36,818 bases of DNA from a virus. The notes beneath the pieces are model-generated. The model did no database searches and was not told the DNA's origin. It saw only the letters and a program-made list of their open reading frames with translations. The stretch spans positions 1 to 36,818 of IMG/VR virus record IMGVR_UViG_3300042197_003137. One strand, written 5' to 3'. Shown one piece after another: positions 1 to 23,124 of this stretch. Position 1 is the first letter of the stretch; the number at the start of each line of letters is the position of its first letter. The position numbers were made by a program, and so were the translations under genes.

Positions 1-494
1 TGTGCGATGCGAATGTACTTAGATAGCCCGATAAGTTTGCCAGCGGCAATGATGCCGATGTATGCAACACCAGCAACAGGCTGATGATGATGAGAACACA
101 TACTACGCAACTCACTGCGAACAACCAACATACCCGCATAGCGATCCTCCGTATCATTTGGAAACGCTGTACAATCTGGTGCTGGTTCATATCTTCCTAC
201 CATTATTTCATTAAAGTACATCTTAGCAAGCCTGCGGGCTGTGCCTTTGCTGTTAGGATCGTTTTCTCTATCAATCAACAGGGTGTCTAGCACTTGTTCA
301 AATGCCTCTGTTGCTTCATCGATTAGTTTTTCTATATCACCTTCGTGTAGATAGTCGCTAATGTTATCGCCTGCCCAGAAACGCTTGCCTTCACGCTTCA
401 TCTTAAAGCGAATATGATCGCATAGGTATGCTTCTTGATATCCGCCATCGCCTGCCATTGCGTCCAGGCCTGTTTCTTGTTTTTTTAATTTCAA
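1..494 (-). CDS. folE: GTP cyclohydrolase I (FolE), cut by the window edge
   Basis: The first 164 codons are present and the C-terminus lies beyond base 1. The protein ends here with SELRSMCSHHHQPVAG followed by HIG/GLSK-type text (AYIGIIAAGKLIGLSKY), the zinc-site and active-site block of GTP cyclohydrolase I (family pattern CEHH...GLSK). The enzyme converts GTP to dihydroneopterin triphosphate, the entry to folate and to 7-deazaguanine (queuosine-type) synthesis. The start is TTG at 494: it is preceded by GGAG with about 7 nt spacing, and an in-frame TAA lies just upstream. The next in-frame ATG is 12 codons in and lacks a good ribosome binding site. The gene sits beside a QueD-like protein and a DpdA-like transglycosylase, so a role in DNA base modification is more likely than folate supply. 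The family call is firm; the use of TTG is probable. Confidence 0.88.
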   Translation of the reverse strand, partial: MKLKKQETGLDAMAGDGGYQEAYLCDHIRFKMKREGKRFWAGDNISDYLHEGDIEKLIDEATEAFEQVLDTLLIDRENDPNSKGTARRLAKMYFNEIMVGRYEPAPDCTAFPNDTEDRYAGMLVVRSELRSMCSHHHQPVAGVAYIGIIAAGKLIGLSKYIRIA

Positions 495-528
495 TTATAT
501 TCTCCGAGTTATTGTCGTGGATGACATA

Positions 529-1632
529 TTATTTTAACATCTTTAATAGATTATCGCAACTAAAGAAGTTCTTTGTTAATACATCTACCTGTGTATTTAG
601 GCGAGGCAGATACTTTTCATAATTTTCCATATACTGGATGATCTGATGTACGATCTTTTCTCTATGTATACGATATGCTTCAAAGTTCAGAGTCCAGGCT
701 GAAGGATATTTGAACACATCTAAGGCCATTTCTGAATAGCTTAGTCGATCCGGAACCATAGGAATAGCATCTACTAGGGCACCTTCATACCACGAGATAC
801 CTAGTGTTTCTTGTAGATTGGCGGAGAATATTAGTTTGCTCTGGCCAAGCAGGTTGTGATATTCGTTTTTAGTCAAGGGATATTCTTGGCAGATCACGAA
901 CTCGTACTGAGGAAGACTTTCTTTGAGATCCATAAAGATCTCTACCTGCTTCTCCGGAGCCAGCCTATGGGGAAACAATATAAGGTCCCGTTTGGGCATG
1001 TTCTTGTACATCAGCAGAGTATCTGACATATACTCCATGGGCCAACCACTGCGGATTATCTTACGATTATTATCGGTGTAACGGTCTCGCCAATCTTCGT
1101 CGTACCAAGGATTATCAAACGGAACACCATCGTGGAGAAGTTCATCAAAGAACATCTTGACATGGAACTCCGATGCGAAGTAATTATGATCAAAACAGTG
1201 GAAGAAGCTTTTCTCAGCATGTCGGACCCACGGAGCAGGACCGATAAGACGACCTAGAAAATCTTGCTCGTCATATGAGCCGGCGTGCCAGAGACCGTGT
1301 GTCACTATGGGAATCTCTAAGAGTTCGCTCATATATTTAAGATTGACGACACCAGGATGCCACGCATCTGTGAAGATGAAGTGATCTCCTGCCTTTACCT
1401 TATCCTCGCAGAAAAGTCTGCCCATCTTCTCAACCTGGCTAGCCTTATAGATATTTGTGCCGCCAAAATTAAGAAAGGCGCCAGAAGTAGTGGCTTTAGG
1501 AATATCTTCCAAGCCAGAGATAACTTGAACATCATGACCGTGCCTCTGCAGGAGATCGGGCAGGTGGGTTTTCCACTGTCCAGTATACCTAGTTTCTACA
1601 GCCTCGAGATCAACGAGAAAAACTCTGGCCAT
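529..1632 (-). CDS. GT-B fold glycosyltransferase (GT4-like)
   Basis: This is a 367-aa protein. The C-terminal half carries the features of a retaining GT-B enzyme: PHRLAPEKQ at about residues 221-229, resembling the start of the donor-binding domain, and ETLGISWYE at about 275-283, an E-x7-E motif as in GT4 glycosyltransferases, followed by a small loop ending in IPMV. The N-terminal half looks like a Rossmann-type acceptor domain that begins MARVFLVDLE. No signal peptide or membrane segment is seen. The substrate cannot be told from sequence. It overlaps the upstream small gene by 23 nt and is followed 34 nt later by folE, so it is co-transcribed with modification genes. It may glycosylate a modified base, a virion protein or a host surface sugar; the first is a guess from context only. 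Confidence 0.72.
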   Translation of the reverse strand: MARVFLVDLEAVETRYTGQWKTHLPDLLQRHGHDVQVISGLEDIPKATTSGAFLNFGGTNIYKASQVEKMGRLFCEDKVKAGDHFIFTDAWHPGVVNLKYMSELLEIPIVTHGLWHAGSYDEQDFLGRLIGPAPWVRHAEKSFFHCFDHNYFASEFHVKMFFDELLHDGVPFDNPWYDEDWRDRYTDNNRKIIRSGWPMEYMSDTLLMYKNMPKRDLILFPHRLAPEKQVEIFMDLKESLPQYEFVICQEYPLTKNEYHNLLGQSKLIFSANLQETLGISWYEGALVDAIPMVPDRLSYSEMALDVFKYPSAWTLNFEAYRIHREKIVHQIIQYMENYEKYLPRLNTQVDVLTKNFFSCDNLLKMLK

Positions 1633-1864
1633 TGCGTCTTCCGTTATTATCCCATCGAGGATTCTTTCCTTGGTAAGGTCTGCGAGGACGCTTGCTTGCT
1701 AGGTAAGATTGATAATTTACAGAATCTTTACGATAAAGATCTGCAGGATTAAATTCACAGAGTTCGAATCGACAGTAATCTAGATATGCATCTAGATCAT
1801 CCCAAACTTTAACAACATCGGGACGATTTTCGAAATATTGATAATCTCTGTAATTACGAGCCAT
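1610..1864 (-). CDS. Small conserved phage protein, unknown function
   Basis: This 84-aa protein is rich in Asp, Arg and Tyr. The middle reads DVVKVWDDLDAYLDYCRFE and FNPADLYRKDS, a pattern I recall from small proteins of T4-like aquatic phages, with no known function. The tail is basic (RPRRPYQGKNPRWDNNGRR) and may touch nucleic acid. The start at 1864 follows AAAGGA with good spacing. The 3' end overlaps the glycosyltransferase gene by 23 nt, so the two are likely translationally linked. Confidence 0.6.
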   Translation of the reverse strand: MARNYRDYQYFENRPDVVKVWDDLDAYLDYCRFELCEFNPADLYRKDSVNYQSYLASKRPRRPYQGKNPRWDNNGRRNGQSFSR

Positions 1865-1892
1865 TTTTATTTCCTTTTAAGAACGGGTTAAG

Positions 1893-2354
1893 TTAATATT
1901 TGATAAAACTCCCATTTTCTCCGTCTTCGGAGACCTCAATCCAAATCTCACGATCTGGATATCTTGCTTTGATGACCTCGTACAGTTCGTCCGACATCAT
2001 CTCACAACTTTTATAATCTAATTGGAGTGCAGTGGTTTGTGCCAGTCCAGTTCTATCTTGATTATCGGAAACGGACCGATCACGCAGGACATCGGATCCT
2101 CCGGTCTTGGTATACAGCGACAGGAGCCAACGCTTGAACTGGATGAACTCGATGTCCCGGTCGTTGTGGAACACAGAGATCCACACCCGGAAATGGAAGA
2201 TATGGCGATGAGGATAACCAAGGAACGAAACATCATATTCATCTCCTGTGGCCAGACTAGGATCTGTCAGGGCCGCTGGGTATTTATGTACGCCTTCCTT
2301 CTGGAAGGTTACCCAAATCATTTTATTCGGACGGATGTCTTGTTTTACGATCAT
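1893..2354 (-). CDS. T-fold, 6-pyruvoyl-tetrahydropterin synthase/QueD-like protein
   Basis: This 153-aa protein has a layout that matches QueD/PTPS. A first His sits in a strand (EGVHKYP, H23). A His-x-His pair follows in the next strand (YPHRHIFHFRV, H49 and H51). Then comes an acidic strand-helix segment (DRDIEFIQFKRWL), which corresponds to the 'DF..LK' region. A late Glu-rich strand (EIWIEVSED, about 136-144) matches the pterin-anchoring Glu region. QueD converts dihydroneopterin triphosphate to 6-carboxytetrahydropterin, the step right after FolE. The usual catalytic Cys four residues before His-x-His is absent; the only Cys is C117. It overlaps the upstream gene by 4 nt (ATGA). It could be a divergent QueD or a T-fold relative with another role. 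Confidence 0.5.
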   Translation of the reverse strand: MIVKQDIRPNKMIWVTFQKEGVHKYPAALTDPSLATGDEYDVSFLGYPHRHIFHFRVWISVFHNDRDIEFIQFKRWLLSLYTKTGGSDVLRDRSVSDNQDRTGLAQTTALQLDYKSCEMMSDELYEVIKARYPDREIWIEVSEDGENGSFIKY

Positions 2355-2548
2355 GCTGTTAGAACCTTCGCTAGGGTGTTTAATTCGTCTCGTATCATGA
2401 AGAACTGATAGGTGCTGGTGTTAACGACTTCTCCGTCTTTGAGCTCTTCACCGGTAAATTCGATATTATTTAGGCCATCCGGAAGAAGACAGGGATTTTT
2501 CTTTAGTAAAAGCCTGTATCCAGCGTTTTCTTTAATAATAATTTTCAT
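2351..2548 (-). CDS. Small hypothetical protein
   Basis: This 65-aa protein begins MKIIIKENAGYRLLLKK and ends KVLTA. I recognise no domain. It looks like a small beta-rich cytosolic protein. Its stop overlaps the start of the QueD-like gene in an ATGA arrangement, and it begins 5 nt after the end of the nuclease-like gene. It therefore belongs to the same operon as the modification genes. Confidence 0.5.
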   Translation of the reverse strand: MKIIIKENAGYRLLLKKNPCLLPDGLNNIEFTGEELKDGEVVNTSTYQFFMIRDELNTLAKVLTA

Positions 2549-2553
2549 TGTAA

Positions 2554-3078
2554 TTAATCCTCAAAAAGAGGCGCCTGTCTACTAATAGCCTTGATCTTTT
2601 TCATTTTGTTCCAAGACATACGGTATTTGTAACTATAACCGTTTTCTTTTTCCCAATAACCCCATGAAGCTTTAATATAATCTGGAAAAGTAAACGGATC
2701 GTTATGAAAATGATTTTTTATGTGATCAAAATCTGCTTTGAAAATTTCTTGCAAGACTTTTTTTGTAAAATCAAAAAGTTGTTCATCCACAACTTCGCCT
2801 TCTTTGGTGTAAAACCATTTTTGATATTGTAATTTTTTACAAAGATCGGTTTGATTATAGTCTAATCTTTCAATGTCGTCGACAGAGGATGTTCCCATCG
2901 ATACTCCACTAGTGGCATCTAAATCTCTGGTTTTATACTCTACTCCGGTGATATAATTATCAGGACCTGCGCCATTTTGTAACGGAACTCCTTGTTTTTT
3001 TAAGAGGTCTTCTGCTGATCTCCCAGAAGCCCCGCCCCAAGTATCATTTAGTTTTTTTCCTAGTAAACTGTCATTCAT
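2554..3078 (-). CDS. PD-(D/E)XK nuclease candidate (MvaI/BcnI-like)
   Basis: This 174-aa protein carries GRSAEDLLKK at about residues 19-28 and then PDNYITGVEYK at about 39-49. This gives Asp40, Glu47 and Lys49 in the order of a PD-(D/E)XK active site. An earlier acidic helix (Glu23) and a following segment with MGTSSVDD resemble the arrangement I recall for MvaI/BcnI-type restriction enzymes. The C-terminal half is rich in aromatic residues (YQKWFYTKEGE, WGYWEKENGY) and may read DNA. If active, it would cut DNA inside the cell. Its place beside folE, QueD-like and DpdA-like genes hints that the phage's own DNA is protected by modification. The nuclease motif is visible; the function is inferred and no assayed relative is known to me. 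Confidence 0.45.
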   Translation of the reverse strand: MNDSLLGKKLNDTWGGASGRSAEDLLKKQGVPLQNGAGPDNYITGVEYKTRDLDATSGVSMGTSSVDDIERLDYNQTDLCKKLQYQKWFYTKEGEVVDEQLFDFTKKVLQEIFKADFDHIKNHFHNDPFTFPDYIKASWGYWEKENGYSYKYRMSWNKMKKIKAISRQAPLFED

Positions 3079-3356
3079 CTTAGGCTCTCCATAGTGATGA
3101 TCTTACCAATAGCATCGCCAATATCTTGATCATCAGTGATTATATACATCTTGTTCTCATTGCGATCATTCCTACGATCGTAGTAGCGTGTTTCTATGAC
3201 ATAACCACCCGAGGCGCGATACAGCTGGAATCGCAATCCGTCGCTGCTGAGACTGGCTTCTTCGCAGACGACATTCTGCGGAATGTAGTTTTCATCGTCA
3301 ATATCCTTGTTCAGCCAGTTTCGCAGACGCTGCCGCCAAGATAACTTCTGTTTCAC
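3075..3356 (-). CDS. Conserved small phage protein, unknown function
   Basis: This 93-aa protein starts with GTG at 3356, which forms a GTGA overlap with the stop of a tiny upstream ORF. The sequence has a basic N-terminal helix (MKQKLSWRQRLRNWLNK) and then a beta-rich part with ASGGYVIETRYYDRR and KMYIITDDQDIGDAIGKII. I recall this pattern in small proteins of cyanophages, where it has no assigned role. Its 3' end overlaps the nuclease-like gene by 4 nt. Confidence 0.6.
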   Translation of the reverse strand: MKQKLSWRQRLRNWLNKDIDDENYIPQNVVCEEASLSSDGLRFQLYRASGGYVIETRYYDRRNDRNENKMYIITDDQDIGDAIGKIITMESLR

Positions 3357-3433
3357 TTTTCTCGCCTTTTTACTCTGTTAGAACCCAGTGTCTGTGCCTG
3401 AGTGGCACCTGTTATCGGGTAGTATCCGGTCAT
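3353..3433 (-). CDS. Possible 26-aa peptide, coupled at both ends
   Basis: An ATG at 3433 overlaps the TGA of the upstream gene (ATGA), and the TGA of this ORF overlaps the GTG start of the downstream gene (GTGA). The peptide starts MTGYYPITGATQAQ and ends in a basic tail (NRVKRREK). The double stop-start overlap is the same style used by the real genes here. It may be a genuine mini-gene or only a coupling device that carries ribosomes across the 73-nt gap. No function is suggested. Confidence 0.35.
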   Translation of the reverse strand: MTGYYPITGATQAQTLGSNRVKRREK

Positions 3434-3948
3434 GTTAGCACCTTATCGTTTTTATAGCAATCCCAATCAGTAAAACACTCGCGATCTTTCAGCTTGTGTA
3501 GGCTATGCGTCCACACACCGGGATTGGTCGCTTTAAAGTCTCGGTCATCGATCTTGATCATAGTGTTGTAGTTCCAAAGTTTGATGTAGGGGATTGGAAC
3601 ACGGATCTGCGGAATGAAACGATCGTAGTCGTTGAGACCACCTTCGTTAAACTCTTCTACCTGATTCATAGGAATATCTAGACTACACCAATACCCCTGT
3701 TCTAGGAAATAGGTGATCATTGTTTCCCAACTCTCGTGTTCATCGTAGCCTTCCGGATTGAAACTATGGTTAGCACCAAAGAAGATATGCCGGATATCTT
3801 GGTCTTTGAGAACGTGTTTGATAGTTTCGATAGATTGTCGACCTACTACGAACAAAGTTTTCATTCCATACGCAGGAGTGTGTTCGATCTCGTCACCGAC
3901 GAAGAATGTCACATCATCTTTCTGGCCAGTGCTATAATCTCTATTCAT
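3430..3948 (-). CDS. Conserved T4-like phage protein, unknown function
   Basis: This 172-aa soluble protein has a Rossmann-like beginning: FFVGDEIEHTPAYG, then MKTLFVVGR, then IRHIFFGANHSF. The second half holds FIPQIRVPIPYIKLWNYN and TNPGVWTHSLHKL, which I recall from hypothetical proteins in cyanophages. No catalytic motif is clear. It lies between the DpdA-like gene and the nuclease-like gene and overlaps its upstream neighbour by one base (TAATG). It could be an accessory factor of the modification block; that is context only. Confidence 0.6.
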   Translation of the reverse strand: MNRDYSTGQKDDVTFFVGDEIEHTPAYGMKTLFVVGRQSIETIKHVLKDQDIRHIFFGANHSFNPEGYDEHESWETMITYFLEQGYWCSLDIPMNQVEEFNEGGLNDYDRFIPQIRVPIPYIKLWNYNTMIKIDDRDFKATNPGVWTHSLHKLKDRECFTDWDCYKNDKVLT

Positions 3949-4178
3949 TACCAGGTACTCACATCAGTTATGTCAATGGTGGTATCGATGTCCTTGTCGT
4001 TATCGCCAAACAGATTAAATCTAACAACGACAGTGGGACCAATACCACTTTCTAGGCTTTCTTCTAAAGTAAACCATTCTACATCTGGAAAATTCTCAAC
4101 CATCTTAGCGAGTTTTTCGACCTGCTTGCGATTAAGGGCGAATTGATTGGATTTATATTTTTTATCTTTCATCGTCAT
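3948..4178 (-). CDS. Small hypothetical protein
   Basis: This 76-aa protein has a basic N-terminus (MTMKDKKYKSNQFALNRK) followed by an amphipathic helix and a beta part with IGPTVVVRFNLFGDND. No family is recognised. It overlaps the DUF465-like gene upstream by 17 nt and the next gene by one base, so it is part of the same tightly packed operon. Confidence 0.5.
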   Translation of the reverse strand: MTMKDKKYKSNQFALNRKQVEKLAKMVENFPDVEWFTLEESLESGIGPTVVVRFNLFGDNDKDIDTTIDITDVSTW

Positions 4179-4371
4179 AGTCTACGTGTTCTCTTTCGTA
4201 TTCCCATTGCTGTCTACGTAGTTTAGCAATTTCATCACGATAATGCAACCTCTGTTTCTTCAAATTGCTTAAATGTTCGTCAGAAAATGTGCCGGTTTTT
4301 TCCAATCTGTCGATTTGATTGTCTAAGATTCTATGTGCTTCTTCTAGTGTCTTGATTCTACGTTCAAACAT
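4162..4371 (-). CDS. DUF465/YdcH-like helical-hairpin protein
   Basis: This 69-aa protein is almost all helix: MFERRIKTLEEAHRILDNQ, then LEKTGTFSDEHLSNLKKQ, then LHYRDEIAKLRRQQ. The pattern 'F..hr.Ld..I...e......L..LKk.kL..kDEI..l' fits the small DUF465 family, which forms a two-helix coiled coil. The role in phages is unknown, and a scaffold or adaptor function is possible. It starts 10 nt after the DpdA-like gene, whose stop it follows in the operon. Confidence 0.55.
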   Translation of the reverse strand: MFERRIKTLEEAHRILDNQIDRLEKTGTFSDEHLSNLKKQRLHYRDEIAKLRRQQWEYEREHVDYDDER

Positions 4372-4381
4372 GATTGTCTCC

Positions 4382-5923
4382 TTAGTCCGCTTTGAGTTTG
4401 TCTAGTTCATCATCTTCTCTGTCATCCGTCCAAGGTACTGCTAGTTCACCGTCTTCTTTGATTTCATCAAAAAGGCTGTTCATGATATTAGTGACTCCAC
4501 CTCGCAGTCTAGCACCTTCTAGATTTTGTAGGAATCCCAACCTTTCTGCTTCTGCGATCATTTCAAATGCAGATGCTCGATCTTTGCAGTCGAATAGTTC
4601 TTCCACGAATCGATCGAAGTAAAGAATATTACGAGGAACCCATTCTGAGAACTCGTCGCTCTTGTCAGCATCTTTTACTTTCCTCCAACGCCTCCAATCT
4701 GGACGATAGGTCTTTGTTTCAATATCTGCGAGATTGTTTGCTCTCTGCACGGCAACGATATGGCAGTAGACATTATGTGCCATCATCAGCGCATACCCAT
4801 AACTGTCCCACGATGTTTTACCTTCTTTGCCGATCTTGTTCAGCATTCCTGGTGCATAATGGCATATGTCAGCGATGCTGAGACGTCGTCCAATCTCGCT
4901 TTCGAATGGGAAAGGAATATCGTGCCGTCCGGCAAGCATCTTATTATCTGGGGCTTTGTCCATGATAACTGAAAATCGCTTATTGGTATGTTGGGCATTA
5001 GTATAGACAAGCCCGTGGGCTGTGGCGATGAAAGGTGATGCGCAATCAAAACTGATGGTGAAATTCTCATTTACATGCTTCCTTATCTGACGTTGAATGC
5101 TGGTTAAGTAACAACTCCAGTCTAATTGTGCTGTTCCGAGGAAGTGCATCCAATCCTTGCCATCAAGCATGCCATCAAAGCGCATGGTAATCAGTCTGCG
5201 AAGCGTAATAGGCATCTTGCACATATTAGCACCACCCATAGCCCAGCCTTCGCAGGCTTTGTCACCCCACTTACTGGGATCTGAATATTCCTTGACACCC
5301 TGATACCACGTTTCTGCGTTTTCCCAGTTTGAACCCTGTAAAACGTTCAAGAACTTAGTAGCACCTAATCTATTATTTAAGAAATATTCGTTGTTAAAGC
5401 GAGTTTTCGTCAAGCAGTCATCGAACGATTTTAGGCCGGTTTTAGGGCTGTGTATATGGTCGCAGGCCCATGTAGGCACGTCTAGCAACATACTCCAGTC
5501 CGCAGTGAGCTCTAACCAGTTAAGAATATCATCTCTAGTCTTGTTTGCAGCCGGTCCTTCGAAGTTTAGCCAATCAAACTTGAGCACACCTTTACCTACT
5601 TGATATCCACCGGAATCACCTAGGATCAATGTCTTAGATCTATCACGCTGTTGGATCATAGCGTCTTGATCCATCGTCTTATTAAGATCTAGCTGGGCAT
5701 GACCTGCAGAGAACAGACCATATTTGTAGTAAAAATAGCCCTGCTCTGGATTGAGAAAGTTCATTCCTTCTACACCTTGATCGAATCCTTTGGGAATACG
5801 ATCTTTGGGGATGAATTCTTGCTTACGTTGTTTAGCAACATAATCAGAATAGAAAGCACTGATCGCTGGCAAATATACCGCATAATCTTTCTGTAGTGGT
5901 GTTAAATCGACTGGTGTTTTCAT
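4382..5923 (-). CDS. dpdA: DpdA-like DNA 7-deazaguanine transglycosylase (TGT fold)
   Basis: This 513-aa protein keeps the landmarks of tRNA-guanine transglycosylase. LGDSGGYQ at about 101-108 matches the (T/G)DSGG(F/Y)Q block with the general Asp. LQG at about 195, GWAMGG at 226-231 and FLGT at 261 match 'VQGG', 'G.AIGG' and 'L.G.G'. SFDCASP at about 291-297 holds the nucleophile Asp (D293; TGT 'FDC'). The canonical CxCxxC zinc motif of bacterial TGT is not seen, and the C-terminus is extended. Phage DpdA proteins exchange guanine in DNA for a 7-deazaguanine. Start ATG 5923 overlaps the stop of the clamp gene (TAATG). With folE and a QueD-like gene nearby, action on DNA is more likely than on tRNA. 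Confidence 0.75.
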   Translation of the reverse strand: MKTPVDLTPLQKDYAVYLPAISAFYSDYVAKQRKQEFIPKDRIPKGFDQGVEGMNFLNPEQGYFYYKYGLFSAGHAQLDLNKTMDQDAMIQQRDRSKTLILGDSGGYQVGKGVLKFDWLNFEGPAANKTRDDILNWLELTADWSMLLDVPTWACDHIHSPKTGLKSFDDCLTKTRFNNEYFLNNRLGATKFLNVLQGSNWENAETWYQGVKEYSDPSKWGDKACEGWAMGGANMCKMPITLRRLITMRFDGMLDGKDWMHFLGTAQLDWSCYLTSIQRQIRKHVNENFTISFDCASPFIATAHGLVYTNAQHTNKRFSVIMDKAPDNKMLAGRHDIPFPFESEIGRRLSIADICHYAPGMLNKIGKEGKTSWDSYGYALMMAHNVYCHIVAVQRANNLADIETKTYRPDWRRWRKVKDADKSDEFSEWVPRNILYFDRFVEELFDCKDRASAFEMIAEAERLGFLQNLEGARLRGGVTNIMNSLFDEIKEDGELAVPWTDDREDDELDKLKAD

Positions 5924-6660
5924 TAGACTGCCTGTGCAGGAATGATATACTTGTAGGTAGCCAAGCCGCTGTCAAGAGTGATCTGGATAGCACCTTCATC
6001 GCTCAATGCCATCTTGGTGTTATTGACATCAGCGATCTTAAGGATGCTTAAGATTGACAGCACGGGCCAAGTCCAGCCACGCTGTAGTTTGCCTTCTACA
6101 CCCATAGCGAACACAAACTCTCCACCATGTGTGGAAGCGTCGCCGAAGATGAACTTAAGATTACCGCTGTCTGTCTTGGCAAGAAATGTTGGATGCTCGT
6201 TGTTGGCTCCTGCTTGAAAGTTGAAACGCTGTACTGCAGCCACAGTAGGCTCGATCTCTACATCCCACCTGACACCACGGAACTTGACGGTCTTCATCTT
6301 TTCGTTGATAATTTCGCTGTTCATAAAGCGGTAATCGTTACGAAAGTCACCGTCTTTGTTTTCGAAATGGATGCCAACTGGAATAATTTCACCGTTACGT
6401 TCTGCTGATGTGATAGTGATTTTAGCATCATCTTTGTATTCACCACCGTCTAGCAAATATTTTAATTTATTAAGTTGAGGCATACCGAACACACCGATCA
6501 TGTCCGGATAGGGATTATGTGTGTTGGCTTCCATTATTACGGATCGATCGTCAGCGATCGAAAAAACACCAGTGGAATCTTTAGTGCCTGTGATTTTAAC
6601 TGTGGTTAAAAAGCCTAGATTTTGTGTGTGGCTTACGATGTCCTGGAGAATATCTTTCAT
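5923..6660 (-). CDS. gp45: DNA polymerase sliding clamp (gp45)
   Basis: This 245-aa protein is close to the 228 aa of T4 gp45. It starts MKDILQDIVSHTQNLGF and contains GIHFENKDGDFRNDYRFM and FIFGDASTHGGEFVFAMG, a beta-rich pattern matching the gp45 clamp fold of T4-like phages. A trimeric clamp holds gp43 on DNA and, in T4, also activates late transcription. It sits between the polymerase gene and the DpdA-like gene and starts after AAAGGAAAA. A TCTAAATA box lies 25 nt upstream, so it can be transcribed apart from the polymerase, as expected if it is needed late. Confidence 0.9.
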   Translation of the reverse strand: MKDILQDIVSHTQNLGFLTTVKITGTKDSTGVFSIADDRSVIMEANTHNPYPDMIGVFGMPQLNKLKYLLDGGEYKDDAKITITSAERNGEIIPVGIHFENKDGDFRNDYRFMNSEIINEKMKTVKFRGVRWDVEIEPTVAAVQRFNFQAGANNEHPTFLAKTDSGNLKFIFGDASTHGGEFVFAMGVEGKLQRGWTWPVLSILSILKIADVNNTKMALSDEGAIQITLDSGLATYKYIIPAQAV

Positions 6661-6717: not shown

Positions 6718-9387
6718 TCACTCAAAATCAAACAGTTTGCTGAATGTGTTATCCGACCTTGTTGAACTGATGTCCCATTCCAAGACACCAATAAGGTTTT
6801 CTAGCTTTTCGTCAATGACAGTGGTTTCCATTTCGCCATCGTCGAAAGGCAGATCTTTGAACCATTGCGGCAGTCTCAGTTCATCCACAGGATATGCCAC
6901 TGAGGTATAGCCCATAGGATTGTCTTTGACCTTGCAGACAATGACTTTAGCACCATCTACGATGTTCATGGAATACTTGTCATCCATCATGCGCTTTAAA
7001 GTGTTCCAGTTTAGACTGGCTCGAACGTGTCCTGGCATATTAGCCTTGCCCTGTTTCTTTTCCTTGGCAGCATACTCTGTGATATTATTGGCTCTTTTAG
7101 GACTACCTTTCTCCCATCCCGGACGAGTCTTAAATTCCGTGCGGAAATCCGTGATATATTCCAACACTTCTTCTTTTTTCGCTCCAGCCAACACCATTTC
7201 TAGCACTTTGCTTAAAAAATCTTGGATGACCACCGGAGTATCTGACCTCTTAAGGTCTAGACCCATGGCTTTTATTTTTCCTGTTTTACCATCAACATCG
7301 GTACGCTTGCCTTCTTTGTCGTAGTAGAGGACTGCGTATCGCTTCTTGGTGATGAATAGTCCTTTGCTTGCAACAATCTCGCGACCTGCCTTGATGACCT
7401 CTCCTCGAGTTTTGGGAGTATGGAAGGCGTCTTGCATGAACTTAACAAACGTGCCATTTACTTCTTCTCCTATGGTATCGTAAAGTTCGATAACTGATTC
7501 CTTAGACCAAGGAAGGTTGCCTTTCTCAATGTCCTTCTTTAGCGTAGTATACGCAGAGAAGTAACAAGAGTCTGTATCACCGTAGATAACAGCACGACCT
7601 ACGTGATCATATTCTCCGGTAATAATTTCGTTAACCTTAGCAGCCATGTGCCGAGCGACAGTACGGCCAGTTAACGTAGTTGATTGTCCAATGCGGTTAT
7701 CGAAAAAACGGCAACCGGGATTAAGAATAGCGCCATACAAACTGTTTAAGTTAATTTTCTTAACCAACTGTCTTTTGTCCCAATATTCTTCTTCGATCTT
7801 GTTTCCGGCAGCGATACATTCTTTAAGTTTTTCCTGCATCTCTTTTCGTTCTTTGTACCAACGTGCTAGGAGTCCAGGGATAATACCTTCCTTCTCATAG
7901 GTGAAAATAGTACCATTGGCTGACAGCATCCACGGTTGATTACTATCAAATATTAAATCGTAAATCTGTGCGGCGCTTAACGTGTCGTTTCCGCCGTTCT
8001 CCCAATCTATAGTGATTTCTCTTCCAACTTCTCTATCCACGACACTGGTATATTCTACACTACCGAACATTCCTTCCCAAGCTGCGGCAAATGATTTTCC
8101 TTTGGCCTGTTCTGCTGCGATATAATCTTTAGTACCATCTTGGCGCAACTGTCCGACGATGGTCTCTGGACCCATATTCAAGGCACGAATCGCTGACGGA
8201 TACAGAGAGTTAATGTCTAATGAACCGATCCATTCATGGATACCTTTCTTGGGATAAGCAACATAAGCACCTGCTGCCTGTGTATCACCTTGTTCTTCCA
8301 TCTTCTTACGATTAGGAACGATCATACCACGACGATGTGCTTCGTTGATAATAGCCTGTTCAGTTACCGCCACAGCGCCCATAGTAGTCTGTAACAACAC
8401 GGTACAATCGTGAGCCAATTTATTAGATAAATCGAGAAATTTTAATTTCTTATCTAACTTATTCAACAAAGCACAATCTTGACGATTATATTCGATGAAT
8501 TTACGAAAATCATTGTTGTATAGTTGATCCAAGGAACCTTCATAGATAGTCTTGGATTCTCCTATTTCCATCTCTCCGATCGCATCTAGTCTGTAAGTAT
8601 GTCGCTCTTCATAGGTGTATTTCCTGTACATCTCTAGGCTGTCTAAATGTACCCTTCCTATGAGGTCATAGGTTACTGCAGTTTTACCAAATTTTTCATA
8701 TTCTCGTTTTTTGGGGTACTGATTCCACAAACAAAATCTACGAGTATCTTCCTTGCTTAAGACTTTAGTTACACGATTGACAGTATACGGAATATCAAAA
8801 CCTTCCGAGTTCCAGCCGCTTAACACATCTGCATCTTCGATAAGATGAAGAAAACTATCTAACATGTCTGCTTCGTTATCGAATAGCATGGTGTTAGGGA
8901 ATTCTTCTACGGCCCGCTTGGCCTCTTCCATGCTTAGTGTTTTAGGAGGTATAGCGAGGCATATTAAAGTGTCTAACCATTGTAGATGGATCGCGATGGC
9001 AGTGATGGGCATGAAAGCATCGTCCGGAGCGGCATAGCCACGTTCGGGATCAAAATCCACCTCGATATCGAAAAACGCTACATTTAGACTAGGAGCATCT
9101 GCATTTAGATAATGATCTTCTAGACATCTATAAATCGGATTTATATCCGATTCATACAATCGCTTGTTAGAATGTATGGCCAGTTCCTTGCGATGTTCCT
9201 TGACATTCTTGCTAGAAACTCTGCTTAAAGGTTCACCCTTGATTGATTGATACTTACCTTTGGGATCGTAATAGTAAAAGATGTGTCGGGCAGCGTAATC
9301 TTTATAGTGCCTTTCACCTTTGTCATTGCGCTCAACGACACGGATCATGTCGTCGTCGCGATCATAGAATGCGTCAACGTAACTCAT
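6718..9387 (-). CDS. gp43: Family B DNA polymerase (gp43)
   Basis: This 889-aa replicative polymerase has a 3'-5' exonuclease. Exo I is FFDIEVDFD (about 105-113), Exo II is GWNSEGFDIPY (about 191-201) and Exo III is YNRQD (about 300-304). Polymerase motif A is SLDINSLYPS (about 389-398), motif B is KKINLNSLYG (about 543-552) and motif C is YGDTDS (about 602-607), followed by KKRYA. All catalytic acids are present, so both activities should work. I chose the ATG at 9387 (MSYVDAFYDRDDD) rather than 9417, because GGAGG lies just before it and related phage polymerases begin with this sequence. It is transcribed with the dsbA-like and membrane protein genes upstream and the clamp downstream. Confidence 0.95.
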   Translation of the reverse strand: MSYVDAFYDRDDDMIRVVERNDKGERHYKDYAARHIFYYYDPKGKYQSIKGEPLSRVSSKNVKEHRKELAIHSNKRLYESDINPIYRCLEDHYLNADAPSLNVAFFDIEVDFDPERGYAAPDDAFMPITAIAIHLQWLDTLICLAIPPKTLSMEEAKRAVEEFPNTMLFDNEADMLDSFLHLIEDADVLSGWNSEGFDIPYTVNRVTKVLSKEDTRRFCLWNQYPKKREYEKFGKTAVTYDLIGRVHLDSLEMYRKYTYEERHTYRLDAIGEMEIGESKTIYEGSLDQLYNNDFRKFIEYNRQDCALLNKLDKKLKFLDLSNKLAHDCTVLLQTTMGAVAVTEQAIINEAHRRGMIVPNRKKMEEQGDTQAAGAYVAYPKKGIHEWIGSLDINSLYPSAIRALNMGPETIVGQLRQDGTKDYIAAEQAKGKSFAAAWEGMFGSVEYTSVVDREVGREITIDWENGGNDTLSAAQIYDLIFDSNQPWMLSANGTIFTYEKEGIIPGLLARWYKERKEMQEKLKECIAAGNKIEEEYWDKRQLVKKINLNSLYGAILNPGCRFFDNRIGQSTTLTGRTVARHMAAKVNEIITGEYDHVGRAVIYGDTDSCYFSAYTTLKKDIEKGNLPWSKESVIELYDTIGEEVNGTFVKFMQDAFHTPKTRGEVIKAGREIVASKGLFITKKRYAVLYYDKEGKRTDVDGKTGKIKAMGLDLKRSDTPVVIQDFLSKVLEMVLAGAKKEEVLEYITDFRTEFKTRPGWEKGSPKRANNITEYAAKEKKQGKANMPGHVRASLNWNTLKRMMDDKYSMNIVDGAKVIVCKVKDNPMGYTSVAYPVDELRLPQWFKDLPFDDGEMETTVIDEKLENLIGVLEWDISSTRSDNTFSKLFDFE

Positions 9388-9398
9388 ATTCCTCCATA

Positions 9399-9416
9399 TG
9401 CGATTTGTGGCTCGCA
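9399..9416 (-). promoter_or_regulatory. Small hairpin before the polymerase ribosome binding site
   Basis: On the minus strand TGCGA and TCGCA pair around an 8-nt loop (GCCACAAA), ending a few bases before the GGAGG of the polymerase gene. T4 and RB69 gp43 repress their own mRNA by binding a hairpin at this place. The stem here is short (5 bp), so an operator role is only a possibility. Confidence 0.25.
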
Positions 9417-9465
9417 AATACCTCTAGCGCGGTTTATGGCCCCGCCTACCATCTATGCTTATTTA

Positions 9466-11808: not shown

Positions 11809-12012
11809 CTATTTAGTTTTCCTCTTTCCAGATTTCATATTGGCCATCCAATGGGCCATTTTAGCTTTTTCACCCGAAGAAGTTTTAGCGATTTGCCGTA
11901 ATCTACTGATACTTGCACCAGACGGAACCCCAGCCTTTTTTACCCTTCCAGGTCGACTTTTGCCCTTGACTTTACCGTCTGCAAAATTTTCTAATATATC
12001 TCGTATTTTCAT
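11809..12012 (-). CDS. Small basic protein with targeting-like N-terminus
   Basis: This 67-aa protein starts MKIRDILENFADGKVKGK, again like a capsid-targeting tag. It continues with SRPGRVKKAG and GEKAKMAHWMANMKSGKR, a strongly basic segment that could bind DNA. I recall the latter pattern as a recurring module in proteins of marine T4-like phages. Its ATG overlaps the stop of the LysM-GH19 gene (ATGA), so the two are coupled. A role as a packaged internal DNA-binding protein is possible. Confidence 0.5.
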   Translation of the reverse strand: MKIRDILENFADGKVKGKSRPGRVKKAGVPSGASISRLRQIAKTSSGEKAKMAHWMANMKSGKRKTK

Positions 12013-13175
12013 CTCTGTGCCAACTTGAATTTCTTGAAATCTACGAACGCTTCCTGCCGATCTGATAGACCGTTTAATCCGGGATTGATGGGCTTGGTCA
12101 CTGCTCGAACATCGTTGAAATTATCTACTCTAGGTTGCACACGGCTTTGCCAGAACCATACTGCGATCTTAGCAGCCACTTCTGGCTTTTCTGCCAGTTC
12201 GGGACTCTTTTCTAAGGGTATGCCTAGTGCTTGGCCGGCACGTTTGTAGTTGTAGCGGCCAGTGAGCTGTATGTAGCCGCGGCCTTTGTATCTAGCACCG
12301 TCGCCCGCTTTCTTGTTGCCTAGTTCTTTGGCTTTCTTGGGCGCATGTTTAGGATCATATTTACGGAAATCTAGGCTGCCACCGTATTCTACCATAGATT
12401 TAAAATCGTGGCTTTCGTGTGCGCATTGTGCTAGGAACGCTGCTAATTCTATAGGATCAGTGATTCCTGCTGCTTTTGCTGCTTTAGTTAGCACTGCTTC
12501 GTGCGTAGTTCCTGTCAGTGTTTTGCTGATATCTAATTTTTTTTGAGATTTTTTTTCTGTAGACGTTTTCTCCTCGGCAGATTTTTTTTCTTTAGATGAA
12601 ATATCGACTGTATCTAATTTAGGAACTTTTATAACCTGATCGGGTTTGATGTTAAAATCTTTATCTAATTTGTTTAATTTTTGAATGACTTCCGGGGTAG
12701 TATCAAATGCTTTGGCTATAGAATACACAGTTTGTCCCGGAGCGACTACTACTTTTTCTACGTTTGCCTTAGCATCAGCAGGGCTGCCCATGGCTACACC
12801 GGCACCTAACGCCAATCCAGCCAGTGTATCTCGCCACCCCTCGTCTGTTTGGAATTCTCGTCCCTGTAATTTTACACCCGTGATACCCTGTATCAATGCC
12901 CAGGCTCGGCTGTAGTCTTTGCGTTGTATCAACACTTTTAACAGATCTTTTTCTTTAGGACCTGCTATCCTAAAGAATTTAGCCATCTCCATAGCTCCGA
13001 TGTTGCCGGGATAGCTGGCCTCACCTACTCCACCACCACCACCTCCGCCGTCTCCGCCGTCTCCACTGTAGCCCGCGGCATAGCCGTACCCACCGTAGGG
13101 TCCAGGACCATAGGCAGCCCAGCGCGGTCTACGCTTGCGGCGTTTCTTTTCAATGACGAATTCTTCTGCTCTCAT
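12009..13175 (-). CDS. LysM-GH19 muralytic enzyme with virion-type N-terminus
   Basis: This is a 388-aa mosaic. It starts [17 protein letters not shown] (tag-like) and then has a Gly/Tyr-rich stretch (about 20-50) and a helical module (IGAMEMAKFFRIAGPKEKD). The hydrophobic module DEGWRDTLAGLALGAG lies at about 111-126, and a LysM domain at about 142-187 (GQTVYSIAKAFDTTPEVI). A Lys/Ser linker leads to a GH19 domain from about 222 on, with AQCAHESHDF (general acid Glu254) and GRGYIQLTGRYNY. GH19 enzymes of phages cut the peptidoglycan sugar chain and LysM binds it. A second GH19 at 25590-26219 looks like the free endolysin, so this one is probably virion-borne, helping entry. Confidence 0.8.
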   Translation of the reverse strand: MRAEEFVIEKKRRKRRPRWAAYGPGPYGGYGYAAGYSGDGGDGGGGGGGVGEASYPGNIGAMEMAKFFRIAGPKEKDLLKVLIQRKDYSRAWALIQGITGVKLQGREFQTDEGWRDTLAGLALGAGVAMGSPADAKANVEKVVVAPGQTVYSIAKAFDTTPEVIQKLNKLDKDFNIKPDQVIKVPKLDTVDISSKEKKSAEEKTSTEKKSQKKLDISKTLTGTTHEAVLTKAAKAAGITDPIELAAFLAQCAHESHDFKSMVEYGGSLDFRKYDPKHAPKKAKELGNKKAGDGARYKGRGYIQLTGRYNYKRAGQALGIPLEKSPELAEKPEVAAKIAVWFWQSRVQPRVDNFNDVRAVTKPINPGLNGLSDRQEAFVDFKKFKLAQR

Positions 13176-18809: not shown

Positions 18810-19481
18810 TTATTTATCGGATAATATATATTCATATATCCTTCCTAGAACTTCTGAATTCCTCATGTGTAAAAACAGCAGCGTTTTATGATCTTCTACT
18901 AAAATATATCTAGGATCCCAATTCCAATCAGTGGCAATGAACCAATTTTTGACCGCTTGAGATATTAGAACGTTATTTTGAGTTTCTAACCAATCGATAT
19001 AAATTTTTTTGGCCGATTTATCACCCTGCATCTTGTGCGGTTTGAGGTAGATGCGATATCTGTAACGATCGTGGGGTAATTTTTTGCAAAGTATGTGATG
19101 AATATCCTCGTATTCATCCTTTCTAGAAATGTCTGGCTCGCTGACCAAACACAATATGTGTCGGAATCTGTTAACAAGATAATTGTGAATTTTTGGATCA
19201 TTCGTATAGAGGTCTATATTATCTCTTTCGATCCTTTTGTACCAATCATTTGCGCTTAAAGATTTGAGATACTGACACAAATTAGTCATATCTTCTTTGT
19301 TAGCAAAGGCTTTTTTATAATAATGATATCTAGTATGGTCATCTGAGAAACATTTATTCAATAACTCGATGGCATCATCTAATGAATTCGCACGGAGAAT
19401 GGCCACACCGGGAATCTTTAGTGTGGCCTTATACAGCCATTTTCCATAAAACTTTTTCTTGGTGATATTATGTTTATGCAT
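18810..19481 (-). CDS. Hypothetical protein downstream of clpA
   Basis: This 223-aa basic protein starts MHKHNITKKKFYGKWLYK. It is rich in Tyr, His and Lys, with a C-terminal block HKTLLFLHMRNSEVLGRIY. No known domain is recognised. It overlaps the ClpA-like gene by 8 nt, so it is translated after it and could be an adaptor or partner; that is only from position. It may bind nucleic acid, given its charge. Confidence 0.5.
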   Translation of the reverse strand: MHKHNITKKKFYGKWLYKATLKIPGVAILRANSLDDAIELLNKCFSDDHTRYHYYKKAFANKEDMTNLCQYLKSLSANDWYKRIERDNIDLYTNDPKIHNYLVNRFRHILCLVSEPDISRKDEYEDIHHILCKKLPHDRYRYRIYLKPHKMQGDKSAKKIYIDWLETQNNVLISQAVKNWFIATDWNWDPRYILVEDHKTLLFLHMRNSEVLGRIYEYILSDK

Positions 19482-21798
19482 CTTCGATTTTTTCTTCCAT
19501 CACTAAAGGAGATCCTCTCTTTAATAATTTTTTCTGTTGTTTTGTTAACGGTTTCGCCCGTACAGTGACGGTAAAAGTGATTTCTTCTCCAGATAGTTGG
19601 ATGTGTATATTTCCGCCGTCGACGAGATCGCCAAACAGAACCCTTCTACTCAACGGTGATTTTATTTTATTATCGATCAATCTGGCTAACGGTCTGGCTC
19701 CCATTTTTCGATCATATCCGTTTTTTGCCAACCATTTAACAGAATTATCATCTGCTACTATTTCAATATTCTTGTCTCTAAGTTGGAAGTTTAAATCGTT
19801 GATAAATTTATGTACGATTTTTTCTACAGTTTCGATGTTTAATCTACCAAATTTCACTACAGCATCTAGTCGATTGCGAAATTCCGGAGCAAAAAACTTT
19901 TTAATAGCTTTATCATCTTCTCCTTCGCGCTCAAGTTCGCCGAACCCGATGGTGTTGTTTTCGTTGTCTCGAGCACCTAAGTTGCTGGTCATGATAAGGA
20001 TACAGTTGCGACCATCGGCCTGTTTGCCATTCGATCCTGTGACGAAACCGTTATCCATAAACTGCAGCAAGATGTTAGAAACATCAGGATGGCTTTTTTC
20101 GATTTCATCTAGCAGCAACACACAATTGGGATGTTCTTGTAATTTAGTGATCAGTTGACCGGAATTATCTTCGTATCCTACATAGCCCGGTGGAGCACCG
20201 ATCAGACGAGCCACCGAGTGTTTTTCTTGGTACTCGCTCATGTCGAATCGAACTAATTGCATTCCCATCTTTTCTGCTAATTGTTTGGCAGTTTCAGTTT
20301 TTCCACAGCCAGTAGGTCCTAGGAATAGAAAACTTCCAACAGGTTTGTTAGGTGATTTCATTCCTGCTTGGCTGACGAATATTTTATCTAGCAGTGTATC
20401 AATAGCTCCATCTTGACCCAAAACTGATGATTTCATATTTCCTTCTAGATCAGAAAGATTTTTGCTTTCTTTCTGAGCAACAATCTCTAATGGCATGTTG
20501 ATCATCTTACTGAGTTCGTAGGTAACCTGTTCTATATCTACGATCTGTTCTACACCTTCCATATTTTCGTCATCTTTAAGTTTATATCGAGCCGCTGCGC
20601 AGTCTAAGATATCTATGGCTTTATCTGGCAGTTTTTTATCTGACATGTATTTCACAGAAAGTTTCACAGCCTGATCTATAGCGGCATCGGTGATTTTTAC
20701 TTCATGATGTTTTTCATAATACTTTTTCAATCCTTTTAAGATTTTAATAGTTAGTTCTTCATTGGGTTCATCGATGGTCACACGCTGGAAACGACGCATC
20801 AAAGCACGGTCTTTTTCAAAGTGCTTTCGATATTCTTCCCAGGTAGTGGACGCTATGATTTTCATAGACTTTTTGGTCAATATGGGTTTTAGCATATTGC
20901 TCATATCGTTGCTTGATTGGTTAGCGGCCCCTGCACCCTGCATCATGTGTGCTTCGTCGATGAATAAAATGATCTTACCTTTTTTTTCTAGTGCGGTGAA
21001 TACGGCTTTAATTCGTTCTTCAAAGTCACCACGATACTTTGATCCGGCCAACAATGCTGATATATCTAAAGTATAGACTGTATGGTCTTTGATAAATTTA
21101 GGAACCTTGTCCTCGAAAATCTTTCGAGCCAACCCTTCTGCGATCGCAGTCTTGCCTACTCCGGGTTCTCCTACCATTAACACATTGCATTTATTTCTAC
21201 GTGCTAGAATCAGTTGGATTTTTTCTAATTCTTCGTCTCGTCCTATCACCGGATCAATCTTACGTTGTTTAGCCTGTAAGGTTAGGTTCGTGCAGAATTG
21301 ATTTAGAATTCTTTCTATCTGATTGTTCGTGGTCGCTGGAATACTTTCTTGTTCTTCTTCTATGATAACATTTTCTTGGAAATATTTCACAAATTTTTCT
21401 TTAGTCAGACCGCCTTTGTTTAGAAAATAATAACCAAAACTGTTTTTTTCAGCCAGTACACTGATAATAACGTCTGCGATCTCCATGCGTTGCCTGCCGC
21501 TGAACAAAACCTGTGTAAAACATCGATTCAACACACGTTCAACACTAGTGGTTTTTTTAGGTTTCTTTACCTGAGATTGTGAGATGATTTCTTTGAGGTT
21601 ATTTTTTAGATAGTGATCTAGATTGGTCTTAATAAAATTAGCATCGGCCCCAAAGTTAGAAATCATGTCATACGATTCTTGATCACTCATGATGCTATAG
21701 ACTAGATGTTCTATAGTGATGTACTCATGATTTAACTGCTTGGCTATTTCAACGGCGGTATTGAAGATATTATGCAGGTGCTGGCTGGGCTCTATCAT
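19474..21798 (-). CDS. clpA: ClpA-type AAA+ unfoldase
   Basis: This 774-aa protein has the full size of E. coli ClpA (758 aa). Residues 1-140 form the Clp N domain (QHLHNIFNTAVEIAKQLN, ITIEHLVYSIM). The first ATPase has GEPGVGKT (about 210-217) and FIDEAH (about 279-284); the second has GPTGCGKT (about 494-501) and LLLDEIEKSH. An IGF tripeptide at about 617-619 sits where ClpA and ClpX carry the loop that docks on ClpP. No middle coiled coil of ClpB is present. The phage protein probably uses host ClpP to degrade chosen proteins. It overlaps the stop of the deformylase gene (TAATG) and is followed by an unknown gene, so the operon is dnaJ-def-clpA-unknown. Confidence 0.92.
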   Translation of the reverse strand: MIEPSQHLHNIFNTAVEIAKQLNHEYITIEHLVYSIMSDQESYDMISNFGADANFIKTNLDHYLKNNLKEIISQSQVKKPKKTTSVERVLNRCFTQVLFSGRQRMEIADVIISVLAEKNSFGYYFLNKGGLTKEKFVKYFQENVIIEEEQESIPATTNNQIERILNQFCTNLTLQAKQRKIDPVIGRDEELEKIQLILARRNKCNVLMVGEPGVGKTAIAEGLARKIFEDKVPKFIKDHTVYTLDISALLAGSKYRGDFEERIKAVFTALEKKGKIILFIDEAHMMQGAGAANQSSNDMSNMLKPILTKKSMKIIASTTWEEYRKHFEKDRALMRRFQRVTIDEPNEELTIKILKGLKKYYEKHHEVKITDAAIDQAVKLSVKYMSDKKLPDKAIDILDCAAARYKLKDDENMEGVEQIVDIEQVTYELSKMINMPLEIVAQKESKNLSDLEGNMKSSVLGQDGAIDTLLDKIFVSQAGMKSPNKPVGSFLFLGPTGCGKTETAKQLAEKMGMQLVRFDMSEYQEKHSVARLIGAPPGYVGYEDNSGQLITKLQEHPNCVLLLDEIEKSHPDVSNILLQFMDNGFVTGSNGKQADGRNCILIMTSNLGARDNENNTIGFGELEREGEDDKAIKKFFAPEFRNRLDAVVKFGRLNIETVEKIVHKFINDLNFQLRDKNIEIVADDNSVKWLAKNGYDRKMGARPLARLIDNKIKSPLSRRVLFGDLVDGGNIHIQLSGEEITFTVTVRAKPLTKQQKKLLKRGSPLVMEEKIEDA

Positions 21799-22292
21799 TA
21801 TTTTTGTTTCCTTAGTTTTTGTATTGCTAATTTTAACTTCAAGGGACTAACGATGTCAACGAAACATATACCATTGAGATGATCAAATTCGTGCTGAAAG
21901 CATCTAGAAATTAATCCGTCCATTTCTGCTTCTATGATGTCTCCTCGACTGTTCTGGTACTCCACTATTATTTTTTTTGGCCTTTTTACATTCAACCAAA
22001 GTCCAGGGAAACTCAGACATCCTTCTTTGAAGATTTCTTTTTCTTGATCTGTGCTGATTATTTTTGGATTGAAAACTGCGAAGGGTTTAGGAAATCCCGG
22101 AATATTATCGCTGCCCATGACAAAAATTTGTTTAGCAATACCTATTTGATTAGCGGCTAAACCTATACCCATATGTTTCTGCATAAAATAACATAGATCA
22201 GATTCTAATTTTTCAGAATCACCGTCTCTAGAAAAATCCCAAGAAGTGCTTACTTGTTGAAGGCTTTGATGCGGTCCTAGTTTATAATCCAT
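21798..22292 (-). CDS. def: Peptide deformylase
   Basis: In this 164-aa protein the three motifs of deformylase are intact: GIGLAANQ (42-49), EGCLS (90-94, metal ligand C92) and QHEFDH (133-138, metal ligands H134 and H138 with Glu135). It removes the formyl group from new proteins. Phage deformylases are usually short, like this one. It overlaps the dnaJ-like gene by 11 nt and ends in a TAATG overlap with clpA. Expression with a chaperone and an unfoldase suggests a role at the ribosome exit during phage protein synthesis. Confidence 0.95.
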
Positions 22293-23124
22293 TTTTCAAT
22301 TGTTCTACGAGATCTTTTTGTTTAGTTGATGTAATTTTTGGTATTTTAATTTTTATTTTTACTAAAAGATTACCTCTTAACTTGCTACGCATATTTGGCA
22401 ATCCTTCGTTTCTGCAACTTAATACTGTTTCGGGCTGGCTACCTGCCGGTACAGCGATTTCTAATGACTTGTTGTCTAGTGTAGAAATATCTATTTTTGT
22501 TCCTAACATGGCATCCCATGCTGAGATGAATTTTTCTAGTATTAGATTATCGCCTTCTCGTCGAAACATTCCGTGCGGCATGATTCTAACATTAACTATT
22601 AAATCTCCGGGAGGTATGTTAGAAATGGTATTATCTCCCATTCCTTGATATCTTATCTGTTGTCCTTCTTCTATTCCAGACGGTATCACAATATTAATAA
22701 TCTTTTTCCTTCCTCCAGGTATGGCTATTTCTGCATCGAGATTTTTACCTTGTAAGACATCTTCTAATGTAAGATCCACCATGAGGCTGATAGTTTTGTT
22801 TCTTTGAACATGTCTGTGTCCGAATCCGCCAAATCCGAATCCACCAAATATATCATCAAAATTGTTAGCATTGAAATGAAACTCGAAAGGACCGTTTTGT
22901 CCGAATCCATTACCTTGCGGTTGGCTCTTGGGATCTATACCCATGTCTACCATCTGTTTTTTTTGAGGATCACTTAAGATTTCATAGGCTTCCGAAATCT
23001 GTTTAAATTTTTTCTCATCTCCACCGCGATCAGGATGATGGTTCATGGCCATCTTGCGATACGCTTTTTTAATTTCGTCTTGGGTGGCGTTTCTATTAAC
23101 ACCTAAAGTAGAGTAATAGTCCAT
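22282..23124 (-). CDS. dnaJ: DnaJ/CbpA-type co-chaperone (no zinc finger)
   Basis: In this 280-aa protein the J domain (1-65) has [20 protein letters not shown] and the HPD tripeptide in HHPDRGGD, needed to stimulate DnaK. A Gly/Phe-rich region (about 85-115, [11 protein letters not shown]) is followed by two C-terminal substrate domains ([24 protein letters not shown]). The CxxCxGxG zinc repeats of full DnaJ are absent, which places it in the CbpA class. It would guide clients to host DnaK, perhaps capsid proteins or initiator complexes. It is the first gene of the proteostasis operon, after a terminator at 23137-23168. Confidence 0.92.

Follow-up and report, generated by a model that had tools for sequence, protein, structure and literature searches.

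The window, the whole 36,818-nt virus fragment IMGVR_UViG_3300042197_003137 from IMG/VR, carries nearly all of its genes on the minus strand, and the module treated here, a predicted 7-deazaguanine DNA modification cassette at its left end, therefore runs from right to left. Its conserved upstream neighbor is a T4-type family B DNA polymerase (6718-9417; all genes in this paragraph are on the minus strand), whose top tblastn relatives are jumbo-phage polymerases, the best among them that of Sinorhizobium phage Phosso. Next comes a sliding-clamp-like protein of PHROG 12062 (unknown function; 5923-6660), presumably a clamp, whose gene holds the equivalent position in the phages PA5oct and 2.275.O. 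There follow a 513-residue protein that we predict to be a DpdA-type DNA guanine transglycosylase of a new branch (4382-5923), small open reading frames (ORFs), a probable QueD/PTPS paralog without the catalytic cysteine (1893-2354), a small conserved ORF of 84 residues (1610-1864; 80 loci of the window's clade and 37 distant loci), a GT4-like (GT-B) glycosyltransferase of 367 residues (529-1632), and FolE, GTP cyclohydrolase I (3-494), whose C-terminal part is lost at the window edge. Among the small ORFs separating the DpdA-like gene from the QueD-like gene is a conserved, uncharacterized DpdA partner of 172 residues (3430-3948) without a Pfam or PHROG family; it is present in 93 window-clade and 63 distant loci, and its homolog in phage ACP17 directly precedes DpdA2 (E 3.7e-38). 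Neither this ORF nor the glycosyltransferase figured in the original prediction, which was made from the DNA letters and rested on the FolE, QueD-like and DpdA-like genes; the glycosyltransferase and the QueD paralog together are the most constant partners of DpdA. Megablast of the window returned no close named phage, and PADLOC detected no convincing defense family in it.

The protein at 4382-5923 had been described as a TGT-fold enzyme of the DpdA type, with SFDCASP and LGDSGGYQ and without a CxCxxC zinc motif, and this description holds in each of its elements. The motifs occur in TGT order: LGDSGGYQ (D103), LLDVPT (D148), LQG (Q196), GWAMGG (226-231), HFLG (260-263) and ISFDC (D293), the last being part of the second catalytic-aspartate motif, ISFDCASP. 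Their counterparts in the Zymomonas TGT we take to be D102/Y106, D156, Q203, G230, G261 and the nucleophile pair D280-C281. In an alignment of 52 relatives reaching down to about 36% identity, D103, S104, G105, G106, Q108, D148, G197, L262, G263 and D293 do not vary, and none of the 52 has the zinc motif. An AlphaFold2 model built from the same alignment has a mean predicted local distance difference test score of 88.4 and a predicted template modeling score of 0.88. When this model was compared with the PDB by Foldseek, TGTs filled ranks 1 to 27, led by 1wkd (E 1e-8) and ahead of any unrelated chain, the first of which came at 8.6e-3, and VIA-align superposed it on the Thermotoga TGT over 303 residues (Z 19.1, 4.6 A). 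Among viral models (BFVD) the best match is the 596-residue ortholog of Vibrio phage 2.275.O (5e-31), and lower down there is a protein of Vibrio phage nt-1 that has the length of DpdA2 (2.4e-9).

By sequence, the same protein stands apart from the established families, with no match in Pfam, PHROGs, NCBIfam or PADLOC. The Pfam TGT model, which detected the enzyme in 14 of 14 cellular control genomes, has no match in the window protein or in the genomes of PA5oct, Phosso and 2.275.O. Sequence and sequence-profile searches between the window branch and DpdA2 gave no match in either direction, and hhalign of the branch against seven DpdA2 sequences related the two with E 2.3e-7 and a probability of 93.5 (2.4e-6 with a smaller alignment). 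Sequence-profile searches of the PDB with the DpdA, glycosyltransferase and QueD-paralog families yielded nothing usable, and viral contigs scanned with only the PA5oct and 2.275.O proteins as queries gave no matches. A Campylobacter phage CP220 type of DpdA was considered and rejected, as CP220 contains no significant match. The only Pfam TGT match among phages bearing the window's DpdA family is a weak one, to XYR92962 of Xanthomonas phage PhiXhv-12; this protein, which is matched by the window branch (8e-8), by DpdA2 (1.6e-3) and by Pfam TGT (5e-3), retains a zinc-type motif, CTCPIC, and on these alignments it is a bridge between the window branch, DpdA2 and TGT.

The nearest characterized relative, DpdA2 of phage nt-1 (YP_008125322), acts in DNA modification, because nt-1 DNA contains 7-deazaguanine bases (Hutinet et al. 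2019, PMC6884629). Like the window branch, it is TGT-derived, lacks the zinc motif and lies with FolE and other 7-deazaguanine genes, and the two share the motif order DSGG[YFL]Q, D-x-P, QG, H[FM]LG, IS[FY]D. They differ in length and in company: nt-1 DpdA2 comes with QueC and a GATase-type gene, whereas the window branch is mostly found with the glycosyltransferase and the QueD paralog, and without QueC. The window protein thus has a TGT-type TIM-barrel fold, the catalytic aspartate pair with the base-pocket motifs, and 7-deazaguanine synthesis genes nearby, as in the DpdA superfamily. The most fitting reading is that of a new branch of DpdA, and its sequence relations suggest a sister branch of DpdA2 kept outside that subfamily. 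Base exchange in DNA is very probably its activity.

The fold could also speak for an enzyme acting on tRNA, a queuine-type phage TGT that reprograms host decoding, in which case the whole cassette would belong to tRNA metabolism; T4-like phages do alter host translation. We consider this improbable. The window protein shares with the bacterial, archaeal and eukaryotic TGTs (PF01702) the overall fold, the two catalytic aspartates and the base-pocket motifs, but at about 15% identity it falls below Pfam detection, it has lost the CxCxxC...H zinc site, as have all 52 of the sequences aligned, and its neighbors are phage DNA replication genes, the polymerase and the clamp-like gene adjoining it. 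Moreover, its nearest profile relative is DpdA2, whose phage has modified DNA, and QueA, QueG and QueH were not noticed. A position inside the tRNA-acting TGTs would have contradicted the original prediction; the Pfam TGT model and the zinc motif, which were compared to this end, both speak against such a position.

The gene at 1893-2354 had been called QueD-like; the enzyme assignment fails, and a remote relationship to QueD/PTPS is indicated weakly but consistently. Aligned with phage QueD by hhalign, the protein gives E 2.1e-4, with a probability of only 46 and over the C-terminal half only, and it has no Pfam PTPS match; it belongs to PHROG 17812 (unknown function). The family has three invariant histidines, an SCE motif and a conserved glutamate, with Leu45 at the position of the catalytic cysteine and no D-H pair, whereas Cys28, D71 and H72 are invariant in six phage QueD sequences. 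Judged by these residues, it is not QueD but probably a remote paralog that has lost the catalytic cysteine. A true QueD is encoded besides the paralog in ACP17, ZZ01, PA5oct, Phosso and RHph_I1_18. In total, 27 phage records contain the paralog, and a DpdA-like protein accompanies it in every lineage examined, namely a protein of the window branch, DpdA2 in ACP17, X1 and ZZ01, and TGT-like proteins, recognized by eye and partly by a shared hidden Markov model, in RHph_I1_18, Ahp1, D479, Bakedbeans, MA9V-3, phiST and Roos. It occurs in cassettes that lack QueC, including that of Cellulophaga phage phiST. In Roos, the paralog, the DpdA-like gene and a YhhQ-type transporter are direct neighbors, and no synthesis genes were seen around them; the paralog may therefore be independent of de novo synthesis.

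The product of 529-1632 has an EX7E motif (E275/E283) and conserved R223 and K228. The window copy has no direct Pfam match; its homolog in X1 passes the Pfam Glycos_transf_1 cut-off (7.4e-12), and that in PA5oct matches the same model at 1.1e-3. On these motifs and matches we assign it as a GT4-like GT-B glycosyltransferase. With the ACP17 homolog as query, 20 phage records were retrieved (ACP17, the PA5oct group, Phosso, X1, ZZ01, PhiXhv and Ep032), and all of the glycosyltransferase-bearing phages examined, a set that leaves out Ep032, PhiXhv-15 and PhiXhv-16, encode DpdA-family proteins. In PhiXhv-12, a relative of the glycosyltransferase stands in a row with Gat-QueC (QueC 2.3e-49), a PIG-L type deacetylase and a Gfo/Idh oxidoreductase, a row that from its gene content looks like a sugar hypermodification operon. 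The setting, an independent one, ties the glycosyltransferase family to 7-deazaguanine and to sugar processing. The row occupies L131:5747-9830; its Gat-QueC is annotated as glucosamine-fructose-6-phosphate aminotransferase, and a GNAT acetyltransferase lies upstream. Two DpdA2 cassettes are also noteworthy: BUCT-ZZ01 has, besides the homolog of the window enzyme, a second GT4-like glycosyltransferase directly upstream of DpdA2 (L120:4629-5972), and Stenotrophomonas phage Marzo has a gene annotated as inositol-1-phosphate synthase (L123:3496-4746), which could point to inositol decoration.

FolE at the left edge was correctly recognized in the original prediction: the truncated gene matches Pfam GTP_cyclohydroI at 1.6e-13 and, despite the truncation, the PHROG GTP cyclohydrolase at 4.7e-19, and it is complete in a 99% relative (L002). 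That QueC and QueE might lie past the left edge was borne out for QueE and not for QueC or Gat-QueC. In relatives, the region beyond base 1 contains the rest of FolE, an HhH-GPD glycosylase, a phosphoribosyltransferase, a HIT protein and QueE. No QueC was detected in the 18 long related contigs, which reach 372 kb, and the Pfam QueC model, which detected its positive controls in nt-1 and 2.275.O, found none in PA5oct or Phosso. Two QueC-like matches were set aside, one partial and below cut-off (G003), the other partial and in an ORF whose sequence looks like another ATP pyrophosphatase (G009). The absence of QueC marks the window's branch rather than every glycosyltransferase-bearing phage, since PhiXhv-12, the phage with the bridging protein, has Gat-QueC.

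In two of the three copies tested, the phosphoribosyltransferase is closest to xanthine phosphoribosyltransferase and then to HGPRT, and it is annotated XGPRT in ZZ01; as base exchange must release guanine, guanine salvage would be its natural reading. Phage QueE (for example L004:15277-16143) has its third radical-SAM cysteine displaced to 34 to 49 residues after the second in 46 of 47 distinct sequences, and the NCBIfam QueE models break at this displaced cysteine. The HhH-GPD base-excision glycosylase just past FolE (L004:12153-12563, Pfam 4.2e-8; L002:10826-11233; L057:16310-16732) resembles MBD4-type glycosylases in sequence and is possibly linked to base repair in the phage. The HIT-domain protein in the same region (L004:13957-14361, Pfam 9.6e-8) might process a nucleotide or sugar nucleotide.

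The association of these genes is conserved well beyond the window. One scan of IMG/VR confirmed 420 DpdA relatives (at least 420 overall). Co-occurrence was counted in 40 contigs of the window's clade that extend 9 kb or more downstream, and in 50 contigs of distant relatives supplied by a second scan, 32-52% identical to the PA5oct protein. DpdA, the QueD paralog and the glycosyltransferase occur together in all 40 window-clade contigs, along with FolE (40/40), QueE (39/40) and the phosphoribosyltransferase (30/40). Among the distant contigs the trio is found in 47 of 50, FolE in 41 and the phosphoribosyltransferase in 35. Many of the contigs are related to each other, so that these counts are not independent, and independence rests on the named phages. 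In the PA5oct/Paride group of Pseudomonas phages (Wroclawvirus), gp168-gp162 are direct orthologs. Their single cassette holds DpdA (44% identical), the glycosyltransferase, the QueD paralog, the phosphoribosyltransferase and QueE, and only QueE has an annotation other than hypothetical. The order in PA5oct is polymerase, clamp-like gene, DpdA, glycosyltransferase (its start codon overlapping the DpdA stop), QueD paralog, an epimerase-like gene (Pfam 6e-7), phosphoribosyltransferase and QueE; it differs from the window in this epimerase-like gene and in having its own QueD genes elsewhere. Phosso groups the polymerase, clamp, QueD paralog, glycosyltransferase, FolE and QueE, with DpdA elsewhere, and homologs of the window's glycosyltransferase and QueD paralog adjoin DpdA2 in ACP17, X1 and ZZ01. 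In 2.275.O, the polymerase and clamp-like gene are followed by two small ORFs, DpdA, one ORF, QueF, YhhQ, QueC, a class II glutamine amidotransferase and FolE. The idea of a phage 7-deazaguanine DNA system around DpdA and FolE, already put forward in the original prediction, thus gains support from the fold, from the profile link to DpdA2 and from the FolE, QueE, QueF, YhhQ and QueC genes near the orthologs in 2.275.O and PA5oct.

We propose, as the reading that is probably correct, that the cassette carries out a glycosyltransferase-linked 7-deazaguanine modification of phage DNA, in which a base of the QueE level is made, exchanged into DNA and glycosylated, and the released guanine is recycled. 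FolE, a QueD from host or phage, and QueE would yield 7-carboxy-7-deazaguanine (CDG). The QueD paralog, which has kept the zinc/pterin-type site and not QueD chemistry, would probably trim or adapt the base, a CDG decarboxylase being one candidate; a tailoring enzyme for CDG, DpdL, is said to have been described in phage 7-deazaguanine cassettes by Cui et al. in 2023. The DpdA branch would then put this base in the place of guanine in replicated phage DNA, through a TGT-type double displacement with D293 as nucleophile and D103 as acid/base. The GT4-like enzyme would most likely attach a sugar to the inserted base, and the phosphoribosyltransferase would salvage the guanine freed by the exchange. 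As an enzyme that glycosylates modified bases in replicated DNA, the GT4-like protein would resemble the T4 alpha- and beta-glucosyltransferases and other phage DNA glycosyltransferases, from which it differs in its GT4-like sequence and in its presumed acceptor, a 7-deazaguanine instead of 5-hydroxymethylcytosine. For the glycosyltransferase step taken singly, we regard the chances that a DNA base is the acceptor as about evenly balanced.

Several observations weigh against this proposal. The literature consulted yielded no nucleoside chemistry for any member. In the clade of the window, no canonical QueD was detected; the contigs are fragments, and absence of QueC or QueD from such fragments is no proof. 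The same DpdA branch occurs in 2.275.O with QueC and without a glycosyltransferase near, and none was found near the paralog and DpdA-like gene in RHph_I1_18, Ahp1, D479, phiST and Roos, from which it follows that the glycosyltransferase is not obligatory; it could modify some other target. If the base were plain 7-deazaguanine, C7 would lack the usual handle for a sugar.

In the most serious alternative, the DpdA-based modification is the same but the base is unglycosylated CDG or 7-deazaguanine, the QueD paralog is a decarboxylase or adapter, and the glycosyltransferase serves another purpose, such as modification of the host surface or of a protein, being linked by chance or co-regulation. 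The phages in which the paralog and DpdA-like genes have no glycosyltransferase nearby (the five above, with Bakedbeans and MA9V-3) and the missing QueC speak for this reading, and Cui et al. (2023) reportedly describe a decarboxylase, DpdL, as well as phage DNA containing dCDG and dDG. It is nevertheless rather unlikely, given that 87 of 90 contigs retain the glycosyltransferase next to DpdA, that unrelated DpdA2 phages have it there too, and that it sits by Gat-QueC in PhiXhv-12. That FolE and the PTPS-like paralog are mere fragments of folate or pterin metabolism, lying by chance near a TGT-like protein of unrelated function, is very improbable: FolE also starts folate synthesis, but 39 of the 40 window-clade contigs also have QueE, which plays no part there, and orthologs lie with QueF, YhhQ and QueC.

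Descriptions of 7-deazaguanine in phage DNA come from a modest number of phages, which mostly have QueC or one of its variants, or else a lone DpdA. Virus contigs with the present branch number in the hundreds, and the branch is also found in Pseudomonas phages of the PA5oct type and in one rhizobial jumbo phage, where its DpdA gene is annotated hypothetical. It is conceivable, though somewhat doubtful, that glycosylated 7-deazaguanine DNA is widespread among large phages, made by a QueC-independent route (through CDG or a derivative formed by the paralog) with a dedicated GT4-like enzyme and built-in salvage. Our literature search found no report of glycosylated 7-deazaguanine in DNA, and we know of no sugar-bearing 7-deazaguanine in DNA; if the proposal of glycosylated 7-deazaguanine is true, a sugar on this base would give phage DNA a new class of armor. 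The intact cassette is already present in cultured phages, and the candidate genes can be named: the glycosyltransferase, the QueD paralog and the DpdA neighbor at 3430-3948.

Elsewhere in the window, the gene at 12009-13175 encodes a LysM and chitinase/GH19 protein (Pfam 2.3e-11 and 9.6e-15), likely a lysis or cell-wall enzyme, and 25590-26219 matches an endolysin PHROG. A phage-encoded ClpA/B-type AAA+ chaperone (19474-21798; AAA_2 2e-57) lies close to a DnaJ protein (22282-23124; DnaJ_C 4e-39).

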